DNA from: a virus
Virus record (IMG/VR): IMGVR_UViG_3300034106_001844
Location: 1-42,957 of that record
Reading direction: 5' to 3' (one strand)
Length of the DNA: 42,957 nucleotides
The translations under genes and the position numbers were made by a program. Of this stretch, positions 10,629 through 29,540 are shown piece after piece; within the stretch, counting starts at the first letter, position 1; every line of letters begins with the position of its first letter. Below the pieces are notes generated by a model. The model did no database searches. It saw nothing but the letters and a program-made list of their open reading frames with translations, and was not told the origin of the DNA.

Positions 10629-11123
10629 TTATTTGCTGGATAATCCTGTGTTTTCTAAGACACCTAGGTTTTTAAAAAATCTTTCTGAGTCAAATCTTTG
10701 GTTATCCTTAGAAAAAATTCTACCAATTTGTAAGGCTAGTTCCTCATATATTCTTATATCTAAATGATTTTTTAGATTTTTTAGTACATCTGATACTTCA
10801 ATATATACAGACCTCATAAAAACTGGATCTATTCCTGGTGGCCTTTTTATTATTTTTTCAGACATTTTACCAGATGGCTCATATAAAGTTACTTTTAGAA
10901 AATTCTTTGCGAATCCCCAATCTAAATATGAATCATATACTCTTACTGCATCTATTGCGTTATCATAAGATATTATAGATCTAGGAGGGTTTTCTCCATC
11001 CCTTGAAATAGATATTATATAATGGCTTACGCTTCTTTCTTGAACACCATTTATATATTCTTTTAATATTCTTTCATTCTCTGGGTTAAGTTGTCCCCAT
11101 TCATCTCGTATATTAATATTCAT
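10629..11123 (-). CDS. Hypothetical protein downstream of the hydroxylases
   Basis: A 164-residue soluble protein, mostly helical in appearance, without recognisable catalytic residues. It shares a one-base TAATG junction with the dioxygenase gene 11123-11809 and so is probably co-translated with it. A central stretch (DNAIDAVRVYDSYLDWGFAKNFL) and a helical C-terminus are the only clear features. It may serve the same module as the dioxygenases or the adhesin that follows; function unknown. Confidence 0.65.
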   Translation of the reverse strand: MNINIRDEWGQLNPENERILKEYINGVQERSVSHYIISISRDGENPPRSIISYDNAIDAVRVYDSYLDWGFAKNFLKVTLYEPSGKMSEKIIKRPPGIDPVFMRSVYIEVSDVLKNLKNHLDIRIYEELALQIGRIFSKDNQRFDSERFFKNLGVLENTGLSSK

Positions 11124-11809
11124 TAAATATCTTTTTTCTTATATGCCTGAACATGCTCTGGATTAAATGGATCGTATCCATCTACAAATATGAACGCTGT
11201 AGATATGTATTTATATCCAGACTTTACTGGATGTGATTGATGTAAGTATGGATGGGTGGAGGGGAATATCAGCGCTGATCCGGCCTTTGGTTTAATCCAG
11301 AAGTCCAGGTTGGGATCATCTAAATCAGTACCTGGCCTATTCTTTCCTTCTCTATCGATCATAAAGGAAATCTCTCCACCTTCATGATCTTCATTAAAAT
11401 ATAAAACTATAGAATACAGAAGATTCATATCTCCATCTTGAGTGTCATGATGCACACCTAGCCCACCTCCTGGCGGATACTTGCACATGTCTAAAGATGG
11501 AGAAACATTTGGTTCAATATCTAGACCCTTATCTATTACAAACTGCTTGGCTATTCTTTCTATTGTACCTCTCATATTTTCTATTATTTCTTTTGCCAGC
11601 AAGCGGTTATCTCCAGTAGAGGAATCTCTTTTGTCAAAAAATAGATCCTTTCTTTCTCTATGGCATGAGTCCTGCTTCCACATTGAAATAGATTGATGAA
11701 TTTGCTCATCTCCGTTTATTCTTTCTAAATCATCTATGACCTTCTGTGGATCTTCAATTACATTAGTGTAATAGAAAATATTATCATAATAAATTTTTTC
11801 TAAATTCAC
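11123..11809 (-). CDS. Fe(II)/2-oxoglutarate dioxygenase 1 (P4H-like)
   Basis: A 228-residue member of the prolyl-4-hydroxylase-like dioxygenases, which hydroxylate a substrate while turning 2-oxoglutarate and O2 into succinate and CO2. The iron ligands are His120-x-Asp122 (GVHHDTQ) and His190 (PYLHQS); Lys200 in SGYKY should bind 2-oxoglutarate. The family core NEDHEGGEISF precedes the distal site. The start is GTG 11809 with GAGGAG upstream, because the preceding gene ends three bases earlier. It is the last of three adjacent dioxygenases. The substrate is not shown by the sequence. Confidence 0.85.
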   Translation of the reverse strand: MNLEKIYYDNIFYYTNVIEDPQKVIDDLERINGDEQIHQSISMWKQDSCHRERKDLFFDKRDSSTGDNRLLAKEIIENMRGTIERIAKQFVIDKGLDIEPNVSPSLDMCKYPPGGGLGVHHDTQDGDMNLLYSIVLYFNEDHEGGEISFMIDREGKNRPGTDLDDPNLDFWIKPKAGSALIFPSTHPYLHQSHPVKSGYKYISTAFIFVDGYDPFNPEHVQAYKKKDI

Positions 11810-12550
11810 TTACCCCAACTCCTCTATTTTATATTTTTCACCGTTTTCAGAAATTTTATAGCCTTCTTCTAAAAGAGTTTGCCATTCTTTTTTTTGAACA
11901 CTCTGCTTTTCTCTAATACTCTTCATCTCTTCTTGCCATTGTTTTTTTAGTTCCTCTGGGTATGCAATTTCATCCCTATCGTCCCAAAATGATCCTATGG
12001 TATATCTAGTACCACTTTTTATTAAAGTAACCTCATGGATGTTTTTGAATCCTCCTGAAAAACAGGCAAGCATTCCTTTCTTGGGATATATCTCTATATC
12101 TTTATTTGTAAACTTTAAGGTTCCACCTACAAAATCGTCATTCAGATACAAGAACGCTGCGTATCTACTTCTTTCAAATGGGCTTGGATTTCCTTCAAGG
12201 TCGGTATTATCTGAGTGTGGTCTAGCGTATGCACCTGGCTCCCACTTTTGACTATGAAATCCAATCTTGAATATTGAACTTTTATCTAATCCGTGAATAG
12301 ATGCTACACACTCAATAAATCTATCTTCAAGTTCCGAAAAGAAATTATTTTTTAAACCAAATTCTTCTATCTCTTCATCAGTATCTCTTGGAGTTACAGA
12401 AGAATATGACTCATAAAAAGATATTGGCGTCCATTCAAGTTTTCCGTTTTTTGCTTGCTTATCTAGAATTTTTATTACTTTGTCGCATTCTTCTTCTGTA
12501 ATAAAATCTTCAAATACAAGTATGTCCTCTGTAATCTTTTTTTCTATCAT
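11810..12550 (-). CDS. Fe(II)/2-oxoglutarate dioxygenase 2 (P4H-like)
   Basis: 246 residues from ATG 12550, chosen because GGAGG lies just upstream and the ATGA junction overlaps the previous stop. Active-site residues are His112-x-Asp114 (ARPHSDN), His172 (NIHEV) and Arg182 (SGTRY). Arg replaces the Lys of some paralogues, which the family allows. LNDDFVGGTLKF is the conserved core strand pair. The C-terminus carries a charged helical extension (residues 195-246) absent from the other five copies. The substrate is unknown. Confidence 0.87.
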   Translation of the reverse strand: MIEKKITEDILVFEDFITEEECDKVIKILDKQAKNGKLEWTPISFYESYSSVTPRDTDEEIEEFGLKNNFFSELEDRFIECVASIHGLDKSSIFKIGFHSQKWEPGAYARPHSDNTDLEGNPSPFERSRYAAFLYLNDDFVGGTLKFTNKDIEIYPKKGMLACFSGGFKNIHEVTLIKSGTRYTIGSFWDDRDEIAYPEELKKQWQEEMKSIREKQSVQKKEWQTLLEEGYKISENGEKYKIEELG

Positions 12551-13194
12551 GGTTGCCTCCTTCCAGTATGTTTTTTTATTGTCCAAAAAAATGGGACGGT
12601 ATATCTAATTCCTGATTTTATTTCGCCAACTCCATGAATATAGTTCATGTCTCCTGGAAAGAAATATGCAGATCCAGACTTTGGCTTGAACTGAATTCCT
12701 TGGTTTGGAAAATACAATTCTCCGCCCTCGTAATCATCATTAATATAGAAAAGCCCTGCAATATCATACCATGGGAAGTCATTTGGTTGGCCTGCATCTG
12801 GACCAGAATGTAATTCTTTATCCGCGTGCGGCATTTGAAATTGACCAGGAAGCCATCTTACCATGGCAGGGCTAGTCGGAGCGGCATCTACTGAGAAATA
12901 TGAATCTACTTCAATCTTAAGCCTAGCGACCATACCTTCAATAGTATCTATTATTGATGCGTCTATTTTAGATATATTTGGATATGTAATTACCCTATCT
13001 GCCCAGTAATCAGAATCATAGATTACTGTACCATTTTCATTATAGTGTGTTTCTGTAACATCCCAAATTTTATTGTTTCTAATAAAATTATTTAATTTAT
13101 TTAGTTCATCTTCTCTGATAAAGTTATCCAGAGAAACAATATTTTCTGGCGAATTTCCAAAAAATCCTGATGGGGTTATAGATTGTGGATGCAT
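12547..13194 (-). CDS. Fe(II)/2-oxoglutarate dioxygenase 3 (P4H-like)
   Basis: A 215-residue dioxygenase with iron ligands His123-x-Asp125 (MPHADKE) and His187 (YIHGV), and Arg197 (SGIRY) for 2-oxoglutarate. The core motif INDDYEGGELYFP is nearly identical to that of the copy at 15308-16036, pointing to duplication within the phage lineage. It shares a one-base junction with the partner gene upstream and a 4-base overlap with dioxygenase 2 downstream. Confidence 0.88.
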   Translation of the reverse strand: MHPQSITPSGFFGNSPENIVSLDNFIREDELNKLNNFIRNNKIWDVTETHYNENGTVIYDSDYWADRVITYPNISKIDASIIDTIEGMVARLKIEVDSYFSVDAAPTSPAMVRWLPGQFQMPHADKELHSGPDAGQPNDFPWYDIAGLFYINDDYEGGELYFPNQGIQFKPKSGSAYFFPGDMNYIHGVGEIKSGIRYTVPFFWTIKKHTGRRQP

Positions 13195-13910
13195 TACAAG
13201 TACTTTCTTCTAGACCAAACTTCGTTCAAGTACACTCCGCCATTAGGGACTCGAAATTTGGTGAGATTTACCATATTATCATTAAACATCACTAGTTCAT
13301 CAGGATATTCATATTCTTTTTCCCAATCGTCCCTCTTGAATGGAAGTAGTTGCAGATATGGAGTTCCTTGTGGAATAGTTCCTTCCCAGCCATCTTTAAT
13401 AAAAAATGGAACTGTGCCTGATAAATTAACTTTATCATTATCTACGATTCCTGTAGTGTTCAAGAACGGGAGATCAAATCTATTAAATGGTTGTGACCAC
13501 AACACACTATATCCGTCTGGAGTTTTAATTCCCCAATCGGGCCACCAAGCAAAATGCTCTTTTCTGTACCCGTCTGGCTGCATGAAATCAGGCATCTCAC
13601 TACGCTTTTGAACAAACTCCGCGTACCTGGGGTGTATTTTAACATCTAAAACATTATTAGAGTAATAAAACGTTATGTCACATGGAGTCTCTAATACATA
13701 TCCAGTTCCAAGAATGTCGTAAATGGCGGGGCAAGATTTCCATGCTGGAACTTTGCCTCCGTCTTGACCAATTATTTCTACTCCATCATTATTTTTTAAG
13801 TATCTACTAGCATTTCTATACCACTCAGGAATATTTTTTATAGCAGGAGAAGGCTTTGTTTTAGTGCTTTTATTAAGCCATGGCCTATTTGCGATAAATT
13901 TAATTTTCAT
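13194..13910 (-). CDS. Partner-family protein A (DUF6065-like)
   Basis: A 238-residue protein with two paralogues in this window (22559-23299 and 23317-24069). Shared landmarks are IPEWYR near residue 28, KSCPAIYDILGTGYVLETP near 58-76, a GYSVLWSQPFNRFDLPF segment, TGIVDND, a second PFF strand, and the C-terminal IPQGTPYLQLLPFKRDDW. The layout recalls the uncharacterised DUF6065 family, which I cannot confirm without a profile search. The beta-rich pattern around GTPxxQxxPFKR suggests a cupin-like fold. It is embedded among dioxygenase genes (1- and 11-base overlaps), so a shared process is likely. Confidence 0.7.
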   Translation of the reverse strand: MKIKFIANRPWLNKSTKTKPSPAIKNIPEWYRNASRYLKNNDGVEIIGQDGGKVPAWKSCPAIYDILGTGYVLETPCDITFYYSNNVLDVKIHPRYAEFVQKRSEMPDFMQPDGYRKEHFAWWPDWGIKTPDGYSVLWSQPFNRFDLPFLNTTGIVDNDKVNLSGTVPFFIKDGWEGTIPQGTPYLQLLPFKRDDWEKEYEYPDELVMFNDNMVNLTKFRVPNGGVYLNEVWSRRKYL

Positions 13911-14610
13911 TTGTAATCCTAATCAATATTTTTTTTGCCTCATGTTCTCCATAGGTGTTTCCGTTATGATCTACTGCATTACGATAAAAATGAGTCCATT
14001 CACCTTTAGAATTAAGTTCCTGAGATGCTTCCCCTCTTTTCTGTATTCTTTTGTTCCACTCTTGATCAGACATAAAGTTAGGAACTTTATCAATTAGAGA
14101 AACTTCTAAATCATTTAATTGCTTTAAAGATATAGGAAGAATTGAGGCAACTATTGTTCCTGCTGGAATTGTTATTAGTTCATTTGGCTTGGTCACCATC
14201 AATGCAATAGGGAGTGGCCCTATAATTGCTGAAGTACTTATAATTGTACTAATACATTGAATGCCTTCTAAAAATACGTTTGGCGGTGGCATTGTAAGTA
14301 TAGAAATATTTTTTTCTGGAGAGAAAAAAAGTCCAGTATCTAGGCTCACCGTTCTATTTCCTCTTTTAGAGTGTGCAAAGTTATCGCCATTTATTATTTT
14401 TATGTGCTGTTCTGAAGAACTATTAACGCCGTCCCATATAAAAGATAAGTCCTCTTTAAGTGAAATACCAAGTCCTGCTCTATTGGCTAGAGACATTGGA
14501 AAGCAATGATAGGCATGTCTGTCGAATGTAATGTCCATCCAGTCTCTATTCATTGGAAGTTGGTCCAGCACCACTATAGAGTTAGGATCTTTATAAACAT
14601 TAATATTCAT
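13900..14610 (-). CDS. Divergent partner-family-like protein
   Basis: A 236-residue protein lying between a dioxygenase and partner A. It opens with HCFPMSLANRAGLGISL and FIWDG, and later has IPAGTIVASILPISL. This last segment lines up with the IPxGTPxxQxxPFKR motif of the three partner proteins, but the basic Lys-Arg pair is missing. It is probably a distant member of the same beta-barrel family. No catalytic residues are evident. It overlaps both neighbours by 1-11 bases, so it belongs to one tight operon. Confidence 0.6.
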   Translation of the reverse strand: MNINVYKDPNSIVVLDQLPMNRDWMDITFDRHAYHCFPMSLANRAGLGISLKEDLSFIWDGVNSSSEQHIKIINGDNFAHSKRGNRTVSLDTGLFFSPEKNISILTMPPPNVFLEGIQCISTIISTSAIIGPLPIALMVTKPNELITIPAGTIVASILPISLKQLNDLEVSLIDKVPNFMSDQEWNKRIQKRGEASQELNSKGEWTHFYRNAVDHNGNTYGEHEAKKILIRITNEN

Positions 14611-15308
14611 TACGAACCAGTTTCTTGGTAAAATTCTGGTCGATGATATTTATCTGAATAATCAAGCATGGTAACTATAGAATACTTTGTTCCTGACTTT
14701 ACTGGCATAGCAGTATGTGGATACATAAAGTTTGATGGGAATACAAACAAGTCTCCCGCCCGTGGCTTTACAGTAAGTTCTTGAATACTAAAACTTAATT
14801 CTCCACCCTCATAATTATCATTTGGATATCCTACTAAAGAGACTACACAATTATAGGAAAATCCATGATCGTGATGCTCTCTAAAGTGCTGCCCTGGACC
14901 GTACTTTACAAAGTTCATCGCCTCCCAGTATCTCAATTCTCCTATATTGAAATACTTACAGTATGCTTGGGCTGCTGGAAAGGCTCTTCTATAAACTGAG
15001 TCCCATAGTTTTTTTAGAACAGTTCCTGACAGAGACTTATCGTTTTCAATATCACTTCTTTTATATTTAAAGTCAAAGCAGTCCCTGTAGTCGGGTACCT
15101 TCATTCCATATCCAACCATTGCTTCCATAAAATCATATTGATTAGATTTATCTTGAATAACATCTTCAAGCATATCTATAGATTTAGTAGGAATAAGATC
15201 TCTAAATACGAAAATACCTGGCCCAAGTTCCTCTACTGACGACCAAGTTTGTTCTTCTATAGTACAGAAGTTTTCTATTTTTTTTGCTATATCTTCAATG
15301 CTATTCAC
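14610..15308 (-). CDS. Fe(II)/2-oxoglutarate dioxygenase 4 (P4H-like)
   Basis: A 232-residue dioxygenase with His145-x-Asp147 in FREHHDHG, His198 in MYPHTA and Lys208 in SGTKY. The core is NDNYEGGELSF. The H-x-D-H-G form groups it with the copies at 15308-16036 and 21969-22550, separate from copies 1-3. One-base junctions link it to both neighbours. A protein or peptide substrate is likely for this family, but none is shown directly. Confidence 0.88.
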   Translation of the reverse strand: MNSIEDIAKKIENFCTIEEQTWSSVEELGPGIFVFRDLIPTKSIDMLEDVIQDKSNQYDFMEAMVGYGMKVPDYRDCFDFKYKRSDIENDKSLSGTVLKKLWDSVYRRAFPAAQAYCKYFNIGELRYWEAMNFVKYGPGQHFREHHDHGFSYNCVVSLVGYPNDNYEGGELSFSIQELTVKPRAGDLFVFPSNFMYPHTAMPVKSGTKYSIVTMLDYSDKYHRPEFYQETGS

Positions 15309-16036
15309 TAATATACCAACCTTTGATCTTGTTCTCTATAAGGATAATATCGTAGATTGCCACGGGAGTTATAATCAGTCATCACTACTACTGAGTATTT
15401 TGTGCCAGATATCATTGGCTTAGAGGCATGTTCATATATGAATGTTGACGGAAACATTACAACATCCCCTTGTTTTGGCTTAATTGTTAAATCAAATCTC
15501 GGGAAATAAAGTTCTCCGCCCTCGTAATCATCATTTAAATATGCAACAATTGAAACTGTAGTAACATATGCTGGACCATGATCAGCATGAATATTAAAGT
15601 GGTGTCCAGGGCTTTCATATTTAACAAAGTTAAATACTTCAAAGTAGTTTACGCCTACGCCCCAATATGCTCCATAATCTTGTGAGCATTGGTAGATACT
15701 TCTGAATACTGACTCATGCATATCGTAAAAGATATGATTATTTTCATCTCTATCTCCCAGATTATTTTGACCAATTTTAAAGTCTAGGCAATATCTTGCC
15801 TCTAATAGAGGTTCATTTGACTCTGTTACAATGGCTGGCTGCCAATTGTACTTCATTGACGTACCTAGATTTTTTTCTAAAGTGTTTATCGCATAAGAGC
15901 ATGTATCTTTTGGTATGGCCTGGTTATATACATTAATTCCTAGGGCTGGGTTAGTTACTAAAATATTACCCAGATTTTTTTCTGGCATTCTGTAGGCATG
16001 AGTTTCTTCCCGATTTTTATTAAGCCAATCGTTCAT
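15308..16036 (-). CDS. Fe(II)/2-oxoglutarate dioxygenase 5 (P4H-like)
   Basis: A 242-residue dioxygenase with His150-x-Asp152 (NIHADHG), His203 (YEHAS) and Lys213 (SGTKY); the core is LNDDYEGGELYFP. AAGAAAG precedes the ATG. It is the first gene after the Phe/Pro-repeat fibre protein (17-base gap) and so opens the first oxygenase block in the direction of transcription. This placement makes that fibre protein a natural candidate substrate, which is inference. Confidence 0.88.
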   Translation of the reverse strand: MNDWLNKNREETHAYRMPEKNLGNILVTNPALGINVYNQAIPKDTCSYAINTLEKNLGTSMKYNWQPAIVTESNEPLLEARYCLDFKIGQNNLGDRDENNHIFYDMHESVFRSIYQCSQDYGAYWGVGVNYFEVFNFVKYESPGHHFNIHADHGPAYVTTVSIVAYLNDDYEGGELYFPRFDLTIKPKQGDVVMFPSTFIYEHASKPMISGTKYSVVVMTDYNSRGNLRYYPYREQDQRLVY

Positions 16037-16053: not shown

Positions 16054-16959
16054 TTATTCAAAGTAGCCGATGGTGCCTTGTACGACATAGAAATTATTTG
16101 GGCTACTCACTATATTGTACATTATTGAATAGACCTCTTCAAGTTCTATGTTATTAATTTCTACAAATTCTGATTTTTCATAATTAAACAACTTATATGT
16201 TTTGTCTATTTCAGTAGGTTTTTTAAATGAAACTACTCCTTCATTCTCTACTAAAATATTTAGATTATCAGGGTATACTTCTCCGTCGATATATACAAAA
16301 TTTTGAGTTTCGGAGTAGGAAGAAATACTACTTATTTCAGTATTTACCTGATCTCCAATATTTATATTGTTAGTACCCAATCCATCTATATTTACTGAAA
16401 CTAGATAATCATTTTCAGTCAAATACTTAGCCTCTAAGTATCCATAATCAGATGTAAGAATCATTACTTTAGAATCATCTCTTAATTGATTAGATGGCGC
16501 TGTCTTAGACGGTGGTGGTGGTGGGAATGATGGGAAAAATGGTGGAAAGAATGGGAAGAACGGTGGGAAGAATGGAAAAAATGGCGGGAAGAATGGAAAG
16601 AATGGTGGGAAGAATGGAAAGAATGGAAAGAATGGTGGAAAGAATGGTGGGGGTGCTGATGTTGTAGCGCTTGCCGTACCAGACCTAATGCCTCCTGCAC
16701 CAATAGCATTAACTGTTATAGTATATGCAGTACTTCCAGTAAGACCAGTAACATTAACTGTAGCACCACTAAAAGAAACAGTTCCTCCTGCTGGAGAAGT
16801 GCTTCCTGTATATTGCCATCTTGCATCATAATTACTAATATTAAATGTTAAAGTATTAAACGTGGTGGCTGTATTAGAAAATACAGGAATTGGTGGAGCC
16901 ATTGGTTTATGAATTCCTGGAATTCTACCATGTCCAGAAAATTTTGAAACAAATGCCAT
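16054..16959 (-). CDS. Fibre protein: Fn3-like domain, Phe/Pro repeats, Hint-like C-terminus
   Basis: A 301-residue protein in three parts. Residues about 22-100 look like a fibronectin type III module (SNYDARWQY, VTGLTGSTAYTITV). Residues 103-150 are only Pro, Phe and one Ser, in repeats of PPFFPFF. Residues 160-301 (SKVMILTSDYGYLEAKYLTE ... NFYVVQGTIGYFE) resemble a degenerate Hint/intein-like domain lacking the terminal His-Asn. The start shares a TAATG junction with the upstream fibre gene. Two dioxygenase genes follow directly. Virion fibre or tip protein is likely; the Phe/Pro stretch is most unusual. Confidence 0.65.
   Translation of the reverse strand: MAFVSKFSGHGRIPGIHKPMAPPIPVFSNTATTFNTLTFNISNYDARWQYTGSTSPAGGTVSFSGATVNVTGLTGSTAYTITVNAIGAGGIRSGTASATTSAPPPFFPPFFPFFPFFPPFFPFFPPFFPFFPPFFPFFPPFFPSFPPPPPSKTAPSNQLRDDSKVMILTSDYGYLEAKYLTENDYLVSVNIDGLGTNNINIGDQVNTEISSISSYSETQNFVYIDGEVYPDNLNILVENEGVVSFKKPTEIDKTYKLFNYEKSEFVEINNIELEEVYSIMYNIVSSPNNFYVVQGTIGYFE
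16510..16653. repeat. Short tandem repeat encoding PPFFPFF
   Basis: Purine-rich GGTGGGAAGAATGGAAAGAA-type units of about 21 bases repeat in frame through this stretch, with smaller variants. They encode the Phe/Pro tract of the fibre protein. Such minisatellites expand and contract easily, so repeat number may vary between relatives. Confidence 0.85.
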
Positions 16960-17657
16960 TATGCAAACCTTGCTAGACTTCCAAGTACCACAAATGTATT
17001 ATTCGCTGTCTTTAAAATGGTAAAAGTATAAATATCTATGCTACTGGCATTACCCGCCGCTGGAACTAAGCCATCTGCCCATCTAGGAGTAATACCTACT
17101 CCATCTATCTGGAAAGCGGTTGCTCTAAATGGAGTAGCACCATTTGTTACCAATATTGTTGCTGTAATAACTTGATTATTTGCCATATGGCTATTTAGAA
17201 GTACTCCTGCATCTCCTCTAAAATTAAATGTCCAGTTTGCAGTAGCATTGCCAGTATAATAATGAATTCCTGATGTTACTAAATCAATATTTGCAGTAGA
17301 AGGTATAGCAGAGGCAATTACATTAGAATTTTCTAAAACCTCGTTAGTAACTAGTGTTGCTCCAGCACTTACTGTTCCTGTAAAAGTAGGATTTGCTAGA
17401 GTTGCATATGTTGATTGTGCTGTTGAAGATTTTAGATAACCTTGATTCACCACAAACACGGTGTTTGCAATTTGGGTAGTGCTGGTATCTATTGGAGCGG
17501 TAGGTGCAGTAGGAACTCCAGTAAATGCTGGGGAATCTGCACTAATTTTTGAATCTACCTGTTCTGATAAATCTGCAATAGTTTCACTTAACAATGTTGT
17601 AGTAGTTGTAATGTTCCTAATATCAACATCATCTAACCTAATTCTATTAATAGGCAT
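16959..17657 (-). CDS. Tail-fibre protein with head-domain-like C-terminus
   Basis: A 232-residue fibre protein. The N-terminus is helical (LLSETIADLSEQVDSKI). One or two fibre repeats follow (SPAFTGVPTAPTA, NPTFTGTVSAG). The C-terminal ~55 residues (TAFQIDGVGITPRW, AGNASSIDIYTFTI) are closely related to the end of the fibre protein at 25866-26402. This suggests domain swapping between fibres. It has a purine-rich ribosome site (AAGAAGGGG). Confidence 0.75.
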   Translation of the reverse strand: MPINRIRLDDVDIRNITTTTTLLSETIADLSEQVDSKISADSPAFTGVPTAPTAPIDTSTTQIANTVFVVNQGYLKSSTAQSTYATLANPTFTGTVSAGATLVTNEVLENSNVIASAIPSTANIDLVTSGIHYYTGNATANWTFNFRGDAGVLLNSHMANNQVITATILVTNGATPFRATAFQIDGVGITPRWADGLVPAAGNASSIDIYTFTILKTANNTFVVLGSLARFA

Positions 17658-17672
17658 TTTATTACCCCTTCT

Positions 17673-20600
17673 TTATGCCTGAGCCTCTGTCCAGGAAATT
17701 CTAGCAGCGATATTTGATGCGGTAGCAGCAGAAATGTTTCTTGCTGTGATAAGAAGAACGTCTGGGCCTACTGGGAAGCCAGGATTTAATGTACCCGCCT
17801 GCCCATCACCGCTAATAATTGATGTTCCTAGATCTCTTGCTCTTGATAGATCGTATGTAGTAGATGAGTAGTTTGCGCCACCACCATTCTCTGCATAGAA
17901 GGCAAACACTCTGTCTCCACCAGTAAATGCTCCTGTAGCAGTTGCTGCTGTTGCATTATATGTTGCGGTGCCGTCAAAATATACAACCTGTGCTAGTGAT
18001 CCAGATCCTACCGATACAGAATCCCAGTTAGTTGGGAAAGTAAGAGAACCACCAGTAATTGTTTGTGGATTAAGAATTCCTTCAATAAGGAACAGACCTT
18101 GAGATGAAACCTCCATGCTGTTGAGGGTCAACTGCATTCGGTTAACAATCTCTCTAATTCCGAAATTCTTTCCAATTCCAGAATCTGCTGATGGGGCAAT
18201 TCTAATGGCAAGGAGTGGTCTTTGTGCGCCTGCGGCCACGGTCATAAACCTATTCATACCAGCGGTGAAAATAATAGACTTGTCATCATCATAACGACCA
18301 TCCATGATCACAGATACACCCCAATGGCTTACAACTGGAGCGCAATCGCTGTATACATAACTTACAGAAACCTGACCATTTGCTCCCACTCCACCTAATG
18401 ATGAATCAGGTGTAAATGTTACGCTAGAAGAAGTTCCACCTAGGGTATATGCTGTAGAAGAGAATGATCCAGCAGGATTAACTCCAGCATATGTCCAGGA
18501 TGTTCTTCTTGATAGTCCTGATATTGGATATCCGCGAGCAGAAGAATTATATGATCCAATGTTTGTATACCTAATCATTTCACAATTTACATTGTCTTTT
18601 ACTAGAACCCAGCCACTTGAGGGCCAGTTGACAGCATCTTCAACATAAAAAGTTCCATCTGATGAGCCGAAAGCGCTACCTCTAGCAATTGAGGCTCCTG
18701 CTGTTAGTCTGGTGGTTGGACCATAATTAATTGCCTCAAACCTACCTGGGAGGTTTCCAGAACGCATGTATGCAGAAGTATTAACGTTGTTATTTGGCAT
18801 CTTGTGGCAGTAAACAATGTCTCCATTAGGACCACGGAATCCAAATCTAATATGTCCTGCTCCGTACCATGTGTAGTCGATATAGGCCATCTGCATCTTA
18901 GAAAAGTCCATGTTGTACCCAGATGGACCATTTCCATCCATAGTGTCCATATTCCATGCAGATTGAGGAATTCTAAATGTTTGTGTCTTTAGGTATCTAC
19001 AATTTGTTCTTGTTGCTCCACGATAGGCGGGTGCTACTGTCAGAGATGTGTCAGAAGTAATGCTAGTAATGAGATAACTTTGTCCCTTAATTACTACATA
19101 TTCTCCTACAACCAACTGATCTAAAAATCTTGTGTTCGTTCCAGAAACTGTGCTTGAGCCATTTGTAACACTTACTCTTCCAAACAGTTCTTTTACAGAA
19201 TCTCTTCTACACGCATATACTGTTTGACCATCATATTCAAAAAAGAATCCATTCTGATCATCGTATAGACCCGCTCTTACTGAGGAGCCCTTCCAGGATA
19301 CAGCGGTAACGAATACGTTTGTTCCTCCTGGTGTTGTATCAGTTGGAATAGATGCTGTTGTATAAGTAAATGACTTAGGTCCAGTTACACTACTTACTAA
19401 AGCAGTAATATTATACTTATCGCTATCTGCGTTACCAGCAGAAGAAACAACGCCTTCCACCTTAATAGAAGTATCTATCTGTAAATTATGGTCTTGAATA
19501 GTGCTTACAGTAACAGTATTTCCGCTAGCAGAAATAGTATCAATATCGAAGGTTGGGGTAAACTTTACGCCAGTAGAATACTGAACACCTTTTCCTGACT
19601 GATATCTAAAGTATCTTCTTGTTTGTCTGATCATTTGAGATCCATTTGATGGACCTCCTGTGGTAATTAGAACACCGCCGTCAAGGGCTCTGTGCTGCTG
19701 ATACCCATCTGGCCTAACGTACAAAAATGCGGTGGCAAAGTTAGTTCCTGAGGAAAGAGTTCCTGTTGGTGCTGCTGCAACGGTAAATGAAAAGGTAGTT
19801 GGGGTCGCAACTGTCTGTACAACCCAGTTTCCATTAGGCGGGTTAGTGCTAGCACTTATTCCTCTAACTAAAATAGGAGACCCAGGAACTAGTCCATGTG
19901 CTGATGCTGTAGTTACAGTAACAGTTGTCCCAGAATACACCATGGCTGTTGATGATACTGCTAATGGGATTCTTGCACCATCAAAGATGCCTCCTCCATA
20001 AATTGTAGTATATGTAGAGTCTTGTACTGATCCATTGACTACTCCAAACGCTGTGTATGTAAACGTAGTTGTTGATCCAACCGTATCTACTAAGAATGTT
20101 CCGTCAGTAAATGTACTTGTTGAGTCTTGAACAACTACAACATCTCCAACTGATAGACCATGTGCTGTATTAGTTGTTACTGTAATTGTAGACCGTGGGC
20201 TTTGGTTTCCTCCAACAATTGATGCTACATCAAATGTGGTCGCACCAGTAGTGCGGGAATAGAATGATGGATAATTTGAACTTAGGCTAAGGCTCTCCCA
20301 CTTTGATGGCTGTGGAGAGTACTCAAAATCTGTATCAATTAATGACTGTGGAGTTGAAACTCTGAATTTATCAACAGGATCTCTATATACCTCATCTGGT
20401 CTAAAAGTTTCTGCTGGCTCATCTATGAGAATCTGCAATTTATCTGCTGAAGACATACCAGCAGTATTGTAGTTAAGGACAATAGTGGTTGTGCCGCTAG
20501 CAGCAGAGTATACAAGCGTATCTCTATCTAATGTTGCACCCTGGCGCGTATTTGTTGATACTGCTGAATATGATGTAGCAGTAAGCGCAGGATCGGAGAA

Positions 20601-20732
20601 GTTATAAATAACTTGGTTTCTGCTAACATTTGTGATAAGAGTAAGATGTTCCTGTCTGATATAACGATTTACGACAATCGTTCTTGTAGATGGAGTGAAT
20701 GTGTAATCCTCTACAACTATTCTTCTAGCCAT
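17673..20732 (-). CDS. Large tail/fibre structural protein
   Basis: A 1019-residue beta-rich virion protein. Three related modules near residues 175-235, 265-330 and 405-470 share a pattern of TVTVTT...AHGL...V...TFTYT. A Gly/Ser/Thr-rich central part (about 540-800, with FRIPQSAWNMDTMDGNG) and a C-terminal domain with RSRDLG-like end repeats follow. No enzyme motif is seen. The start has TAGGAGATTAATTA upstream. It probably forms a baseplate or fibre shaft together with the neighbouring fibre genes. Confidence 0.7.
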   Translation of the reverse strand: MARRIVVEDYTFTPSTRTIVVNRYIRQEHLTLITNVSRNQVIYNFSDPALTATSYSAVSTNTRQGATLDRDTLVYSAASGTTTIVLNYNTAGMSSADKLQILIDEPAETFRPDEVYRDPVDKFRVSTPQSLIDTDFEYSPQPSKWESLSLSSNYPSFYSRTTGATTFDVASIVGGNQSPRSTITVTTNTAHGLSVGDVVVVQDSTSTFTDGTFLVDTVGSTTTFTYTAFGVVNGSVQDSTYTTIYGGGIFDGARIPLAVSSTAMVYSGTTVTVTTASAHGLVPGSPILVRGISASTNPPNGNWVVQTVATPTTFSFTVAAAPTGTLSSGTNFATAFLYVRPDGYQQHRALDGGVLITTGGPSNGSQMIRQTRRYFRYQSGKGVQYSTGVKFTPTFDIDTISASGNTVTVSTIQDHNLQIDTSIKVEGVVSSAGNADSDKYNITALVSSVTGPKSFTYTTASIPTDTTPGGTNVFVTAVSWKGSSVRAGLYDDQNGFFFEYDGQTVYACRRDSVKELFGRVSVTNGSSTVSGTNTRFLDQLVVGEYVVIKGQSYLITSITSDTSLTVAPAYRGATRTNCRYLKTQTFRIPQSAWNMDTMDGNGPSGYNMDFSKMQMAYIDYTWYGAGHIRFGFRGPNGDIVYCHKMPNNNVNTSAYMRSGNLPGRFEAINYGPTTRLTAGASIARGSAFGSSDGTFYVEDAVNWPSSGWVLVKDNVNCEMIRYTNIGSYNSSARGYPISGLSRRTSWTYAGVNPAGSFSSTAYTLGGTSSSVTFTPDSSLGGVGANGQVSVSYVYSDCAPVVSHWGVSVIMDGRYDDDKSIIFTAGMNRFMTVAAGAQRPLLAIRIAPSADSGIGKNFGIREIVNRMQLTLNSMEVSSQGLFLIEGILNPQTITGGSLTFPTNWDSVSVGSGSLAQVVYFDGTATYNATAATATGAFTGGDRVFAFYAENGGGANYSSTTYDLSRARDLGTSIISGDGQAGTLNPGFPVGPDVLLITARNISAATASNIAARISWTEAQA

Positions 20733-21968: not shown

Positions 21969-22550
21969 CTATCTCCCACATGCACATCCAGAACCGTGCC
22001 CCAACAGGTCTTTAGGCTGGTCACTCATCCAAGTAACTATAATATACTTTACTCCACTAGTAACTGGCTCTGCTGTATGCAGATAAGGGTAGTTTGATGG
22101 GAAAAGTACTAATGTAGGACTTTCTGGATCAATGGTGTAATTGAAGTGCTTAAATGTAGTCCCACCTCCTTCATATTCTCCAGGGTTTAGGTAAATAAGT
22201 CCAGAAACAGCCCTAGATAAACCTAGTCCATGGTCGGTGTGGTAGTTGTATTTATCGTATGACTCATACTTTAATAAATTAAGTCCCTCATCGCTGTATA
22301 CGTCAATATCATAATAACTTGTGTACTTCTTTACACACTCGTACATGTATGGTCTAATTTCTTTTTGAGATATATCAATATGATCAATTCCAACAGAAAG
22401 GCTAGATCTTACATGTTTGAGTACCGCGCCAGTACCGACGCTGGAATCATTCCATGTCAAATTAGATTTATTTACTTTCTTAATAGTTTCTTTAGCAAGT
22501 TTTTCTGGAAATTCAAATTGAACCGCTCCTGGGAATATCTCTATAGACAT
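21969..22550 (-). CDS. Fe(II)/2-oxoglutarate dioxygenase 6 (P4H-like)
   Basis: A 193-residue, compact dioxygenase. Ligands are His104-x-Asp106 (NYHTDHG), His158 (PYLHTA) and Lys168 (SGVKY); the core is PGEYEGGGTTF. It ends in GHGSGCACGR, a short His/Cys tail that the other copies lack and that might bind metal. AGGAGA precedes the start. It follows two partner-family genes (22559-24069), repeating the oxygenase/partner pairing of the 11-16 kb block. Confidence 0.87.
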   Translation of the reverse strand: MSIEIFPGAVQFEFPEKLAKETIKKVNKSNLTWNDSSVGTGAVLKHVRSSLSVGIDHIDISQKEIRPYMYECVKKYTSYYDIDVYSDEGLNLLKYESYDKYNYHTDHGLGLSRAVSGLIYLNPGEYEGGGTTFKHFNYTIDPESPTLVLFPSNYPYLHTAEPVTSGVKYIIVTWMSDQPKDLLGHGSGCACGR

Positions 22551-22558
22551 TTTATCTC

Positions 22559-23299
22559 CTAAAGGTATTTCTTCTTTACTCTGTGCTTATTCTTATACTC
22601 TCCACCGACAGGCTTACCATCATTATCATATCTACTTAGGGCAAAATCGTAATGACCCTTGGAGTTATCTTGAACATGTAGTGAATTCGGCTCAACAACT
22701 GAATGTGTCCAATCATCTCTTTTAAAAGGAATAATCTGAACGATTGGAGTATTTTTCTTAATAACTCCTTCGTATCCCTTTAACATAAGAAATGGGAATT
22801 GTACTGCTAATGGGTGCATGTCTGTGTCCACTACTCCCGTCAAAGTAAGGAATGGTGATACTTGATTAAATGGGTGGGTAAATATGCAACTATACCCTGG
22901 TGGAGTCTTAATTACATATGGGCTAGTAAATTTATATGCGTATTCATTGTAGACCCCGCCAAGTTCTATGTCTCTGATCTGTTCCCACGGATGCATAGTG
23001 ATAGGCTTAGAGTCACCATCTACCAATTTGGCGGGACACTTACATTCATGAGTGCCATCCTCGTCTATACTCCAGGTAGAATCATACTTAGTAACCAAGT
23101 AGTACCCTGTGGTGAATGCGTCAAGTATCGGTATACACTTTTTTACCGTGAAGTCCTTTTTTTCATTCTCATCTTCTGGGTAGAAGAATCTTCTAAGTGG
23201 AGGCATTTTTTGATACCATTTTGGTATTTCTTTAGTTGCTGGGATGGGCTCAACACAGCCCAGTCCAGGATTTTCTACTGGGATAAATTCTATATTCAT
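22559..23299 (-). CDS. Partner-family protein B (DUF6065-like)
   Basis: 246 residues from ATG 23299; GGAAGAAG upstream acts as ribosome site, and an ATG at 23311 is the alternative. It carries the landmarks of partner A: IPKWYQKMPP, KKCIPILDAFTTGYYLVTK, an HPFNQVSPFLTLTGVVDTD segment, and NTPIVQIIPFKRDDW. A CKCP pair near residue 85 is not shared. It is followed nine bases later by dioxygenase 6. Function unknown. Confidence 0.7.
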   Translation of the reverse strand: MNIEFIPVENPGLGCVEPIPATKEIPKWYQKMPPLRRFFYPEDENEKKDFTVKKCIPILDAFTTGYYLVTKYDSTWSIDEDGTHECKCPAKLVDGDSKPITMHPWEQIRDIELGGVYNEYAYKFTSPYVIKTPPGYSCIFTHPFNQVSPFLTLTGVVDTDMHPLAVQFPFLMLKGYEGVIKKNTPIVQIIPFKRDDWTHSVVEPNSLHVQDNSKGHYDFALSRYDNDGKPVGGEYKNKHRVKKKYL

Positions 23300-23316
23300 T
23301 TCTTCTTCCATATTAG

Positions 23317-24069
23317 TTACTTATACTCTTTTTTTACCCAAATGTTATTTTTATACCAGCCCATTTTAACAGATCTACCCTTTTCTCCAAGGTAGTTGCT
23401 CCTTGCCATACTAAGTTCACTAACATGGGAAACCCAGGAACTTCTTTTTATAGGAATAATCTGTGCTATAGGTGTTCCTTTAAGAATCACTCCTTCAAAA
23501 TCTTTTTGAAAGAAAAATGGGATGTTCCCTCCGGTCCACCACTCATCTGAATCAATAATTCCTGATGTAGTAAAAAATGGTAGGTCAAATCTATTCATTG
23601 GATGAGTCACAGCCAAACTCCATCCTCTAGGAAGTCTGACTCCCCATTGACCTTTAAAAACCATGTGATTTTCACAGTATCCGTTTGGCCTTGGCATGGT
23701 ATGACCCATATCACCGATTCTCTCTTCTACCATATTTAGGTATATAGATTGTTTTTTTTCATACTGATCGGTATAGGGATTTTTTTCCACAGAATAGAAT
23801 TCTTCTACTACATTAGAAGTTTTTATATAGATATCCTCCCAGAAACATATAAAATAACCTGAAATCATTGCATCTAAGAATGGCATACATGATTTCATGC
23901 CACCGATGATATTGTTATCTCCAGGCTTTGCAATTTTTGATGTTTCAGAAGATATAGCCATTTCACCAGCCCTATACCAATTTGGAACAGCACTTTTAGC
24001 AGAAATTGGAGGATCTATATTTTGGCGTGCGTAATGATCTGAAGGAACAAACCTAATTCTTTTTATCAT
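23317..24069 (-). CDS. Partner-family protein C (DUF6065-like)
   Basis: A 250-residue paralogue of A and B: VPNWYRAG, KSCMPFLDAMISGYF, THPMNRFDLPFFTTSGIIDSD, and a C-terminal KGTPIAQIIPIKRSSW. The Lys-Arg pair is kept, while the following Asp-Asp is Ser-Ser. It starts 4 bases inside the small gene upstream and ends 18 bases before partner B. Tandem duplication of B and C is likely, though they are already well diverged. Confidence 0.7.
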   Translation of the reverse strand: MIKRIRFVPSDHYARQNIDPPISAKSAVPNWYRAGEMAISSETSKIAKPGDNNIIGGMKSCMPFLDAMISGYFICFWEDIYIKTSNVVEEFYSVEKNPYTDQYEKKQSIYLNMVEERIGDMGHTMPRPNGYCENHMVFKGQWGVRLPRGWSLAVTHPMNRFDLPFFTTSGIIDSDEWWTGGNIPFFFQKDFEGVILKGTPIAQIIPIKRSSWVSHVSELSMARSNYLGEKGRSVKMGWYKNNIWVKKEYK

Positions 24070-24269
24070 TTGGGGATTACTACTTCTTCTCCGTCCACCT
24101 CAAGGTAGAATCCCTTACTTGAATCGTAGTTCCATGATTCAGTAACTTGAACATCTGTTATGTCTACAATTTGTGGACTTGATAAAAATACGGCTGCGCT
24201 TTGCTCATCAAATCTCATGACTCTCGCAACTTTACCATCAATTATAAATGCTAATACTTTTTCATTCAT
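24066..24269 (-). CDS. Small protein, paralogue of 24491-24784
   Basis: 67 residues. Its N-terminal half (AFIIDGKVARVMRFDEQ, then FLSSPQIVDIT) lines up with the middle of the 97-residue protein encoded at 24491-24784 (ALVIDGVVEDIIHCEEH, LLSEPKVVDIG). The pair flanks the zinc-ribbon gene, with 4-8-base overlaps throughout. Function unknown; it is likely part of the fibre/oxygenase module. Confidence 0.65.
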   Translation of the reverse strand: MNEKVLAFIIDGKVARVMRFDEQSAAVFLSSPQIVDITDVQVTESWNYDSSKGFYLEVDGEEVVIPK

Positions 24270-24498
24270 TACTTGACACCTCCTCTTCTTGTGAATCCCA
24301 TTTTTTAAGTGGGCAACTTGCGGCTGCTAGTTTACTTTTTTGTTTCATAAAACATCCACATTTTTTGCATTGAAAGGTAGCCTTTAATAACTCAGGGCAA
24401 TCCTTACACATTGAAATTCTTTCCATATAAATTTCGTTACTTACTCTGCCCATTTTTTTATTAAATAAGTCCCATGGACGAACATTTTTATCAGACAT
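24262..24498 (-). CDS. Small zinc-ribbon protein
   Basis: 78 residues with six cysteines arranged for metal binding: Cys31-x2-Cys34 (CKDCPEL), Cys44-x2-Cys47-Gly-Cys49 (CKKCGCF) and Cys62-Pro. The layout ends in CPLKKW. Small proteins with this CPEL...CGCF...CPxxKW pattern occur near fibre genes in environmental phages, as far as I recall. A structural or chaperone role is possible. It overlaps both small paralogous genes. Confidence 0.75.
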   Translation of the reverse strand: MSDKNVRPWDLFNKKMGRVSNEIYMERISMCKDCPELLKATFQCKKCGCFMKQKSKLAAASCPLKKWDSQEEEVSSNE

Positions 24499-29219: not shown

Positions 29220-29540
29220 TCATGATAAATATGCCTTTCCAGCGAAAGGATCTCTAAACGTAGCGATTAGAGTGTTTCCATTAATATATTGATAATTACC
29301 TATTACTGCACTTCCCGCCGAATCAACTATCTCAACGTTCGGGAAAAATCCTAGATTATGATTTATTGTCCAGGTATTTGAAGCAGATCCTTGAACATGT
29401 ACATACGCACCTATCCCTGGATCTCCTTGTGGACCTTGGATTCCTTGGATTCCTTGCTGTCCCTGTGGACCTTGAACTCCAGAAGAAGCAACAATTACAT
29501 TGTTTTCAACTCTTTCTACAATAACTCTCTGTTCTGTCAT
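29220..29540 (-). CDS. Collagen-like fibre protein
   Basis: 106 residues. Residues about 20-45 are Gly-x-y triplets (GPQGQQGIQGIQG, then GPQGDPGIG), enough for a short collagen-like triple helix. The rest is a fibre end domain (WTINHNLGFFPNVEIVDSAG). It overlaps the upstream gene by 4 bases. Collagen-like Pro residues are classical targets of prolyl-4-hydroxylases, which matters given the six dioxygenases downstream. Confidence 0.8.
   Translation of the reverse strand: MTEQRVIVERVENNVIVASSGVQGPQGQQGIQGIQGPQGDPGIGAYVHVQGSASNTWTINHNLGFFPNVEIVDSAGSAVIGNYQYINGNTLIATFRDPFAGKAYLS

Follow-up and report, generated by a model that had tools for sequence, protein, structure and literature searches.

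Genes for 2OG-Fe(II) oxygenases, or "prolyl 4-hydroxylases" (P4Hs), are frequent auxiliary genes in aquatic viromes. The use which viruses make of P4Hs "remains cryptic", according to a study of the Baltic Sea (PMC9301287). A role in 2OG/nitrogen signalling has been proposed for viral 2OG oxygenases (PMC3037559). A 2026 lagoon study considers their relevance unclear and suggests a PiuC-like iron-uptake domain (PMC13184970). The P4H of Chlorella virus PBCV-1 modifies Pro peptides with sequence specificity, and hydroxyproline was not detected in its virion (PMC7019647).

The window studied here is the whole stretch of DNA analysed: 42,957 bases of an uncultured phage (IMG/VR virus record IMGVR_UViG_3300034106_001844). 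It has a gene, which we call T (16054–16959, minus strand), with an ATG start and 301 amino acids: an Fn3-like domain, a tract of Phe and Pro (F/P tract) and a dead Hint domain. In the window annotation, the strand of T also carries genes for a portal, a head-maturation protease and a head-protein-like product, together with fibre and structural genes. Directly upstream there is a tail-fibre-like gene (16959–17657, minus strand; phrog tail fiber matches to 3e-8, phrog_5906 6e-29) and then a virion structural protein of 1019 aa (17673–20732, minus strand; phrog_5838, 1.9e-253). From these upstream genes, and from its place amid fibre and structural genes, we infer that T is a fibre-side or virion protein. 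Apart from near-identical contigs, its closest relatives are found in contigs L003 (93% identity) and L006 (56% overall); L280 has an orthologue of 305 aa. A tblastn search of 50,697 phage records gave no relevant match for T, for its Hint half, for the Fn3 half of a relative or for DUF6065. With the catalytic Hint of a relative, one stretch of 31 residues was matched in a faecal phage contig.

The tract ([FYS]F-P/PP, residues 103–151; 16507–16653, minus strand) was delimited by composition, tandem repeats and codon comparison with L006. As the earlier note had stated, residues 103–150 in the window ORF are only Phe and Pro, with a single Ser. Tandem repeats are detected at 16519–16651, with a period of 21, 6.3 copies and a score of 161. 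The tract belongs to no standard family, also as stated before: Pfam, PHROG and NCBIfam give no match there, and it is neither Gly-X-Y nor a repeat family annotated in these collections. F/P tracts are present in more than 100 IMG/VR contigs. The back-translated FFPFFPPFFP is found in at least 120 stretches of viral contigs, compared with 3 in a 257 Gb collection of cellular genomes, where the chance expectation is about 0.007 (hand estimate). Its occurrence is far beyond chance.

We have compared 125 distinct tracts, which follow a simple grammar: F, sometimes Y, H or S, then F, then one or two Pro. The residue preceding the second Phe, which our parser demands, is F in 1893 cases, Y in 175, H in 53 and S in 24. 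The Pro spacers are single in 996 cases and double in 1161. Contigs L139–L148 have variant tracts with His for the first Phe (PPHFPPHF, e.g. FFPHFPPHFPP), several of them with a Hint which has Cys1 and His-Asn.

A tandem array of variable length, 18–173 residues among relatives, could be a minisatellite which expands neutrally and has no function. We find this hardly credible: it is refuted by the silent codon pattern and by the fact that all 125 distinct tracts are in frame. The earlier note had named a frameshifted tract in relatives as an argument against its reading, and none of these tracts is of this kind. When the window (L001) is compared with L006, 15 codons differ over the 34 alignable tract residues and no residue differs; single and double Pro also follow each other in an identical order. 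Only about one fifth to one third of random changes in Phe and Pro codons are silent (hand estimate), so that 15 silent differences out of 15 fall well under 1e-6 by chance. The tracts of L093 and L105, from pairs which were chosen for their identity, have 34 silent differences over 59 identical residues. The whole proteins of L001 and L006 are 56% identical, and among close relatives the domains on either side of the tract are less conserved than the tract itself. Strong purifying selection on the tract is indicated by these codon comparisons.

The earlier note had considered a self-assembling or membrane-active rod. A rigid rod is plausible; for membrane activity or assembly we found no support. 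An unmodified hydrophobic rod, self-assembling or membrane-active, agrees with the composition of the tract and with its strong sequence constraint. However, it leaves the hydroxylase cassette described below unexplained and is very improbable.

The succession of an Fn3-like domain, the tract and a Hint-like domain in T, already proposed, appears correct, and its Hint-like part is borne out by profile and predicted fold. The N-terminal Fn3/Ig-like domain (residues 1–102; 16654–16959, minus strand) has a weak score in the window protein: Pfam fn3 gives E = 0.0021 with the whole protein and 3e-4 with the N-domain alone, at 21.3 bits for a cut-off of 25. In the N-termini of homologues the match is solid (4e-9 and 4.6e-10, 37–40 bits). 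The C-terminal domain (residues 152–301; 16057–16506, minus strand) has a Hint fold with neither Cys1 nor His-Asn. It aligns with catalytic phage Hints (hhalign prob 99.6, E 1e-24), its AlphaFold2 model has a pLDDT of 92.5 and Foldseek relates this model to Hedgehog (1at0), BIL (2lwy; TMt 0.75, rmsd 2.7) and intein structures. The lack of the cleaving Asn, reported before, is visible in the alignment, and the N-terminal nucleophile is absent as well: there is no Cys at Hint position 1 in the window, L003, L006, L061 and L064. The window domain ends in IGYFE, so it has no His-Asn, and it has YPDN where active relatives have TETHP (block-B TxxH). No self-cleavage is expected, since Cys1, the block-B His and His-Asn are all missing. 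Judged from alignment and model, the window Hint has retained its fold and lost its chemistry, and is the last stage of a decay which can be followed among relatives: 14 distinct relatives are apparently active, with Cys1 and C-terminal His-Asn-Lys, three retain Cys without His-Asn and about eleven, including the window, have neither.

In T relatives the tract comes after one to three Fn3-like domains and is itself followed by a short tail or a Hint-type domain. Among the distinct short-tailed proteins 37 have at least four Cys and 51 have fewer, some of these proteins being truncated. Cys-rich tails (e.g. CGYCWRCSVCCPGRSCGC) close T in L012, L018, L035, L063, L113, L117 and others. From their distribution in the sequences, Cys-rich tail and Hint domain seem to be alternatives at the C-terminus of T.

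Behind T there is a cassette of hydroxylase-like genes, all on the minus strand, which abut or overlap. The operon order is T, O1, O2, D1, D2, O3, O4, O5, where O stands for 2OG-Fe(II) oxygenases whose nearest matches are prolyl 4-hydroxylases and D for DUF6065. The earlier note had placed T immediately upstream of two dioxygenases. This is correct but incomplete: five oxygenases and two DUF6065 genes lie downstream, and a sixth oxygenase is found at 21969–22550. O1 (15308–16036; PF13640 3.6e-12) is prolyl-4-hydroxylase-like: phmmer relates it to the P4H structures 3itq/5hv0 with 9e-7, and its active-site residues are H150-x-D152, H203 and K213. The other four are O2 (14610–15308; PF13640 3.3e-14), O3 (12547–13194; 1.2e-6), O4 (11810–12586; 2.9e-9) and O5 (11123–11809; 2.3e-12). 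PF13640 exceeds its cut-off in all six oxygenases of the window. D1 (13900–14610; PF19541 1.7e-24) is a DUF6065 protein and D2 (13194–13910) is related to DUF6065 and to phrog_7084. The AlphaFold2 model of D1 (pLDDT 80) matches dUTPases in Foldseek (E 5e-4, TMq 0.33–0.40), which tentatively suggests a dUTPase-like beta fold. The idea that DUF6065 is a diverged oxygenase was rejected: profile comparison gives a prob of 0.1 and the fold search leads to dUTPases, with low TM. DUF6065 proteins come in pairs locked into oxygenase cassettes, as at 13900–14610, 13194–13910 and 22559–24069 in the window.

A second, smaller O-D-D set is found upstream of the fibre genes (21969–24069, minus strand), with an oxygenase at 21969–22550 and members of the DUF6065 family at 22559–23311 and 23317–24069. 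L280 and L061 have the same D-D-O set upstream. At 24262–24498 the window has a small DUF6171 protein (Zn-ribbon-like CxxC), and comparable small genes recur in several relatives, where they separate T from O1.

In L156 (3973–7639) and L183 (4385–8094, 15697–16365) the cassette contains, or has beside it, genes for a sulfotransferase, an Asp/Asn beta-hydroxylase, a luciferase-like monooxygenase and a short-chain dehydrogenase. Such extra tailoring genes, present in a few cassettes, would fit a modification island. They also agree with a RiPP-like system, in which the cassette would tailor the tract as a multi-core precursor and Hint self-cleavage would free a modified peptide. The layout, a precursor plus tailoring enzymes, and the apparently catalytic Hints after the tract in 14 relatives (Cys1, terminal His-Asn-Lys) go in the same direction. 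However, the Hint is absent from most T proteins and dead in the window, a protease or exporter is not seen, and T lies among fibre and structural genes. We consider a RiPP-like system quite improbable.

The profile of the oxygenase family finds bacterial prolyl 4-hydroxylases first in the PDB (1.6e-16), then prolyl 3-hydroxylase 1 and the Chlamydomonas P4H. The HxD..H Fe triad is intact in 563 of 567 distinct oxygenases, and 562 of them also have Lys or Arg ten residues past the distal His, at the position which binds 2OG in P4Hs. Nearly all paralogues look active, since their Fe- and 2OG-binding residues are intact. Some individual oxygenases match lysyl-hydroxylase only and some match nothing; neither fold nor sequence shows whether the target residue is Pro, Lys, Asn or another one.

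The position of the cassette is conserved across contigs. O or D genes follow 83 of 94 testable T genes on the same strand, six genes away at most, and precede 6 of 39. Oxygenases represent 24–74% of the genes at the ten positions which follow T (+1 to +10) and 0–8% at −1 to −6. Where the core is complete, distinct T loci show the order OODD (24 loci) or ODOD (44 loci). The slots are orthologous across loci with less than 60% identity: O1 in 64 of 68, O2 in 65 of 68 and O3 in 59 of 64. A reverse search from the oxygenase alignment found T by an automatic test in 63 of the best 80 loci, which are biased because the ranking favours O1 relatives. The other 17 are six loci with a T homologue of variant tract (PPHF, PGF), two with T further up (L156, L183) and nine at a contig edge. 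On inspection, cassettes without T are therefore only apparent: among the best 80, every cassette with its upstream region on the contig has T or a variant.

A further sample was based on the portal gene: 27 contigs of at least 22 kb, selected for neither tract nor oxygenase. All six tract-positive contigs have 5–9 PF13640 genes and 19 of the 21 tract-negative ones have 0–2 (Fisher p 9e-5 for raw counts, which come from only a few independent lineages, since contigs such as G033, G034 and G040 look like close kin). The exceptions are G050, which ends inside O1, and G038, where the T orthologue just before O O D D has a divergent tract. The latter is L280 (6565–10354): the tract of this orthologue of the window T has no Pro-Pro spacers (FFP/SFP only) and its cassette is cut to O O D D, with O3–O5 missing. 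Its sequence makes a natural link between PP sites and O3–O5 possible.

The oxygenases might instead act elsewhere, on host metabolites, cell-surface glycans or the collagen-like repeats of fibres, or on iron uptake or the level of 2OG, with T as a mere neighbour. This is the direction of the published proposals, 2OG/nitrogen signalling (PMC3037559) and PiuC-type iron uptake (PMC13184970). Three tract-bearing contig fragments of 38, 53 and 62 kb (L054, L114, L124) have no PF13640 gene at all. There are also 35 collagen-like ORFs in the sampled loci, a weak one of them in the window at 29220–29540; in some T phages such repeats offer an alternative substrate and thus count against hydroxylation of the tract. 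The PBCV-1 precedent, a P4H without detectable virion hydroxyproline, counts against it as well (PMC7019647). However, the cassette has a fixed position directly behind T with orthologous slots, tract and oxygenases are jointly present or absent in the portal-based sample and most sampled loci have no collagen-like ORFs. An action elsewhere is unlikely in our view.

In L114 and L124 the F/P tract is found near the end of a protein of 882 residues. Among 1761 ORFs, T and its variants are nearly alone in having at least 25% Pro over 40 residues. As a fixed neighbour and almost the only proline-rich protein nearby, T provides a specific, testable target for the oxygenases. The number of oxygenases does not rise with the length of the tract (rho 0.20, p 0.45, n=17), which counts against the tract as their substrate. 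Larger contigs can have two or three tract genes beside one cassette, which is consistent with action in trans.

The tract, its selection, the gene order, the orthologous slots, the intact active sites and the Hint fold with its decay are direct observations. The pairing of T with hydroxylase-like genes recurs in many uncultured phage contigs, and so the abundant viral prolyl hydroxylases have in the tract a good candidate target. A modified rather than a naked tract is the leading reading, because the conserved operon which begins with the tract gene encodes prolyl-hydroxylase-like enzymes. As far as sequences can tell, the tract is probably hydroxylated by the downstream cassette; we are less confident of any particular role. 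T would be produced from the late structural operon, O1–O5 would hydroxylate prolines along the tract and the DUF6065 pair may assist them or add further modifications. Polyproline-II geometry is favoured by hydroxyproline, which also brings polar groups. If this effect carries over to the Phe-rich rod of T, the hydroxylated Pro/aromatic tract would form an extended rod of polyproline-II type, stiff and wettable despite about 50% Phe. The rod would connect a base, the Fn3-like domain, with a cap at the C-terminus. This cap would be a folded end piece in the window, where the Hint domain has lost its chemistry; relatives have a Cys-rich tail or an apparently active Hint in this position. We infer Pro as the modified residue, the virion as the site and the effect of the modification.

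More broadly, many uncultured aquatic phages may have a protein-hydroxylation system of their own, with an ordered cassette of P4H-type and DUF6065 genes which makes a hydroxylated aromatic-proline material on the tail-fibre complex, a hydroxyproline/Phe rod, possibly adhesive and possibly also sulfated or oxidised; we rate the chances of this a little short of even. If true, the role of viral P4Hs would shift from host metabolism to the building or decoration of the phage particle. It would represent a virus-made biomaterial with no known counterpart and would explain much of the "cryptic" P4H abundance in viromes. We found no paper on the PFFPPFF motif or on DUF6065 in a search which had most subscription journals and preprints outside its scope; an earlier report is possible.

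When compared with known systems, the Hint of T shares its fold with BIL and Hedgehog domains, and T relatives retain Cys1 and the C-terminal His-Asn. The window Hint differs from them by having no catalytic residues and by its place behind an F/P tract. RiPP clusters with tailoring oxygenases are similar in having a repetitive target gene followed by modifying enzymes. However, in the T system an exporter or protease is not seen and the candidate target is an Fn3-bearing protein of the tail-fibre region. Cyanophages and aquatic viromes have auxiliary genes for 2OG-Fe(II) oxygenases (phrog_61), which belong to the same superfamily and are also found in aquatic phages. Many cyanophage records label these homologues as "ferrochelatase" (H4, H9–H32), which is likely a misannotation. 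Among the matches listed, cyanophage records have one or two oxygenase places each, whereas T loci have an ordered multi-gene cassette tied to one gene of the structural region. With the P4Hs of collagen and extensin and their Pro-rich repeat substrates, the T system shares a P4H-type fold and residues and a Pro-rich candidate target; with the P4H of PBCV-1 it shares a hydroxylase encoded by a virus. It differs from these P4H systems in its tract, which is aromatic-Pro rather than Gly-X-Y, PAPK or SPPPP, and in its organization: in these uncultured tailed phages, typically five to ten paralogous oxygenases lie beside the candidate target gene.
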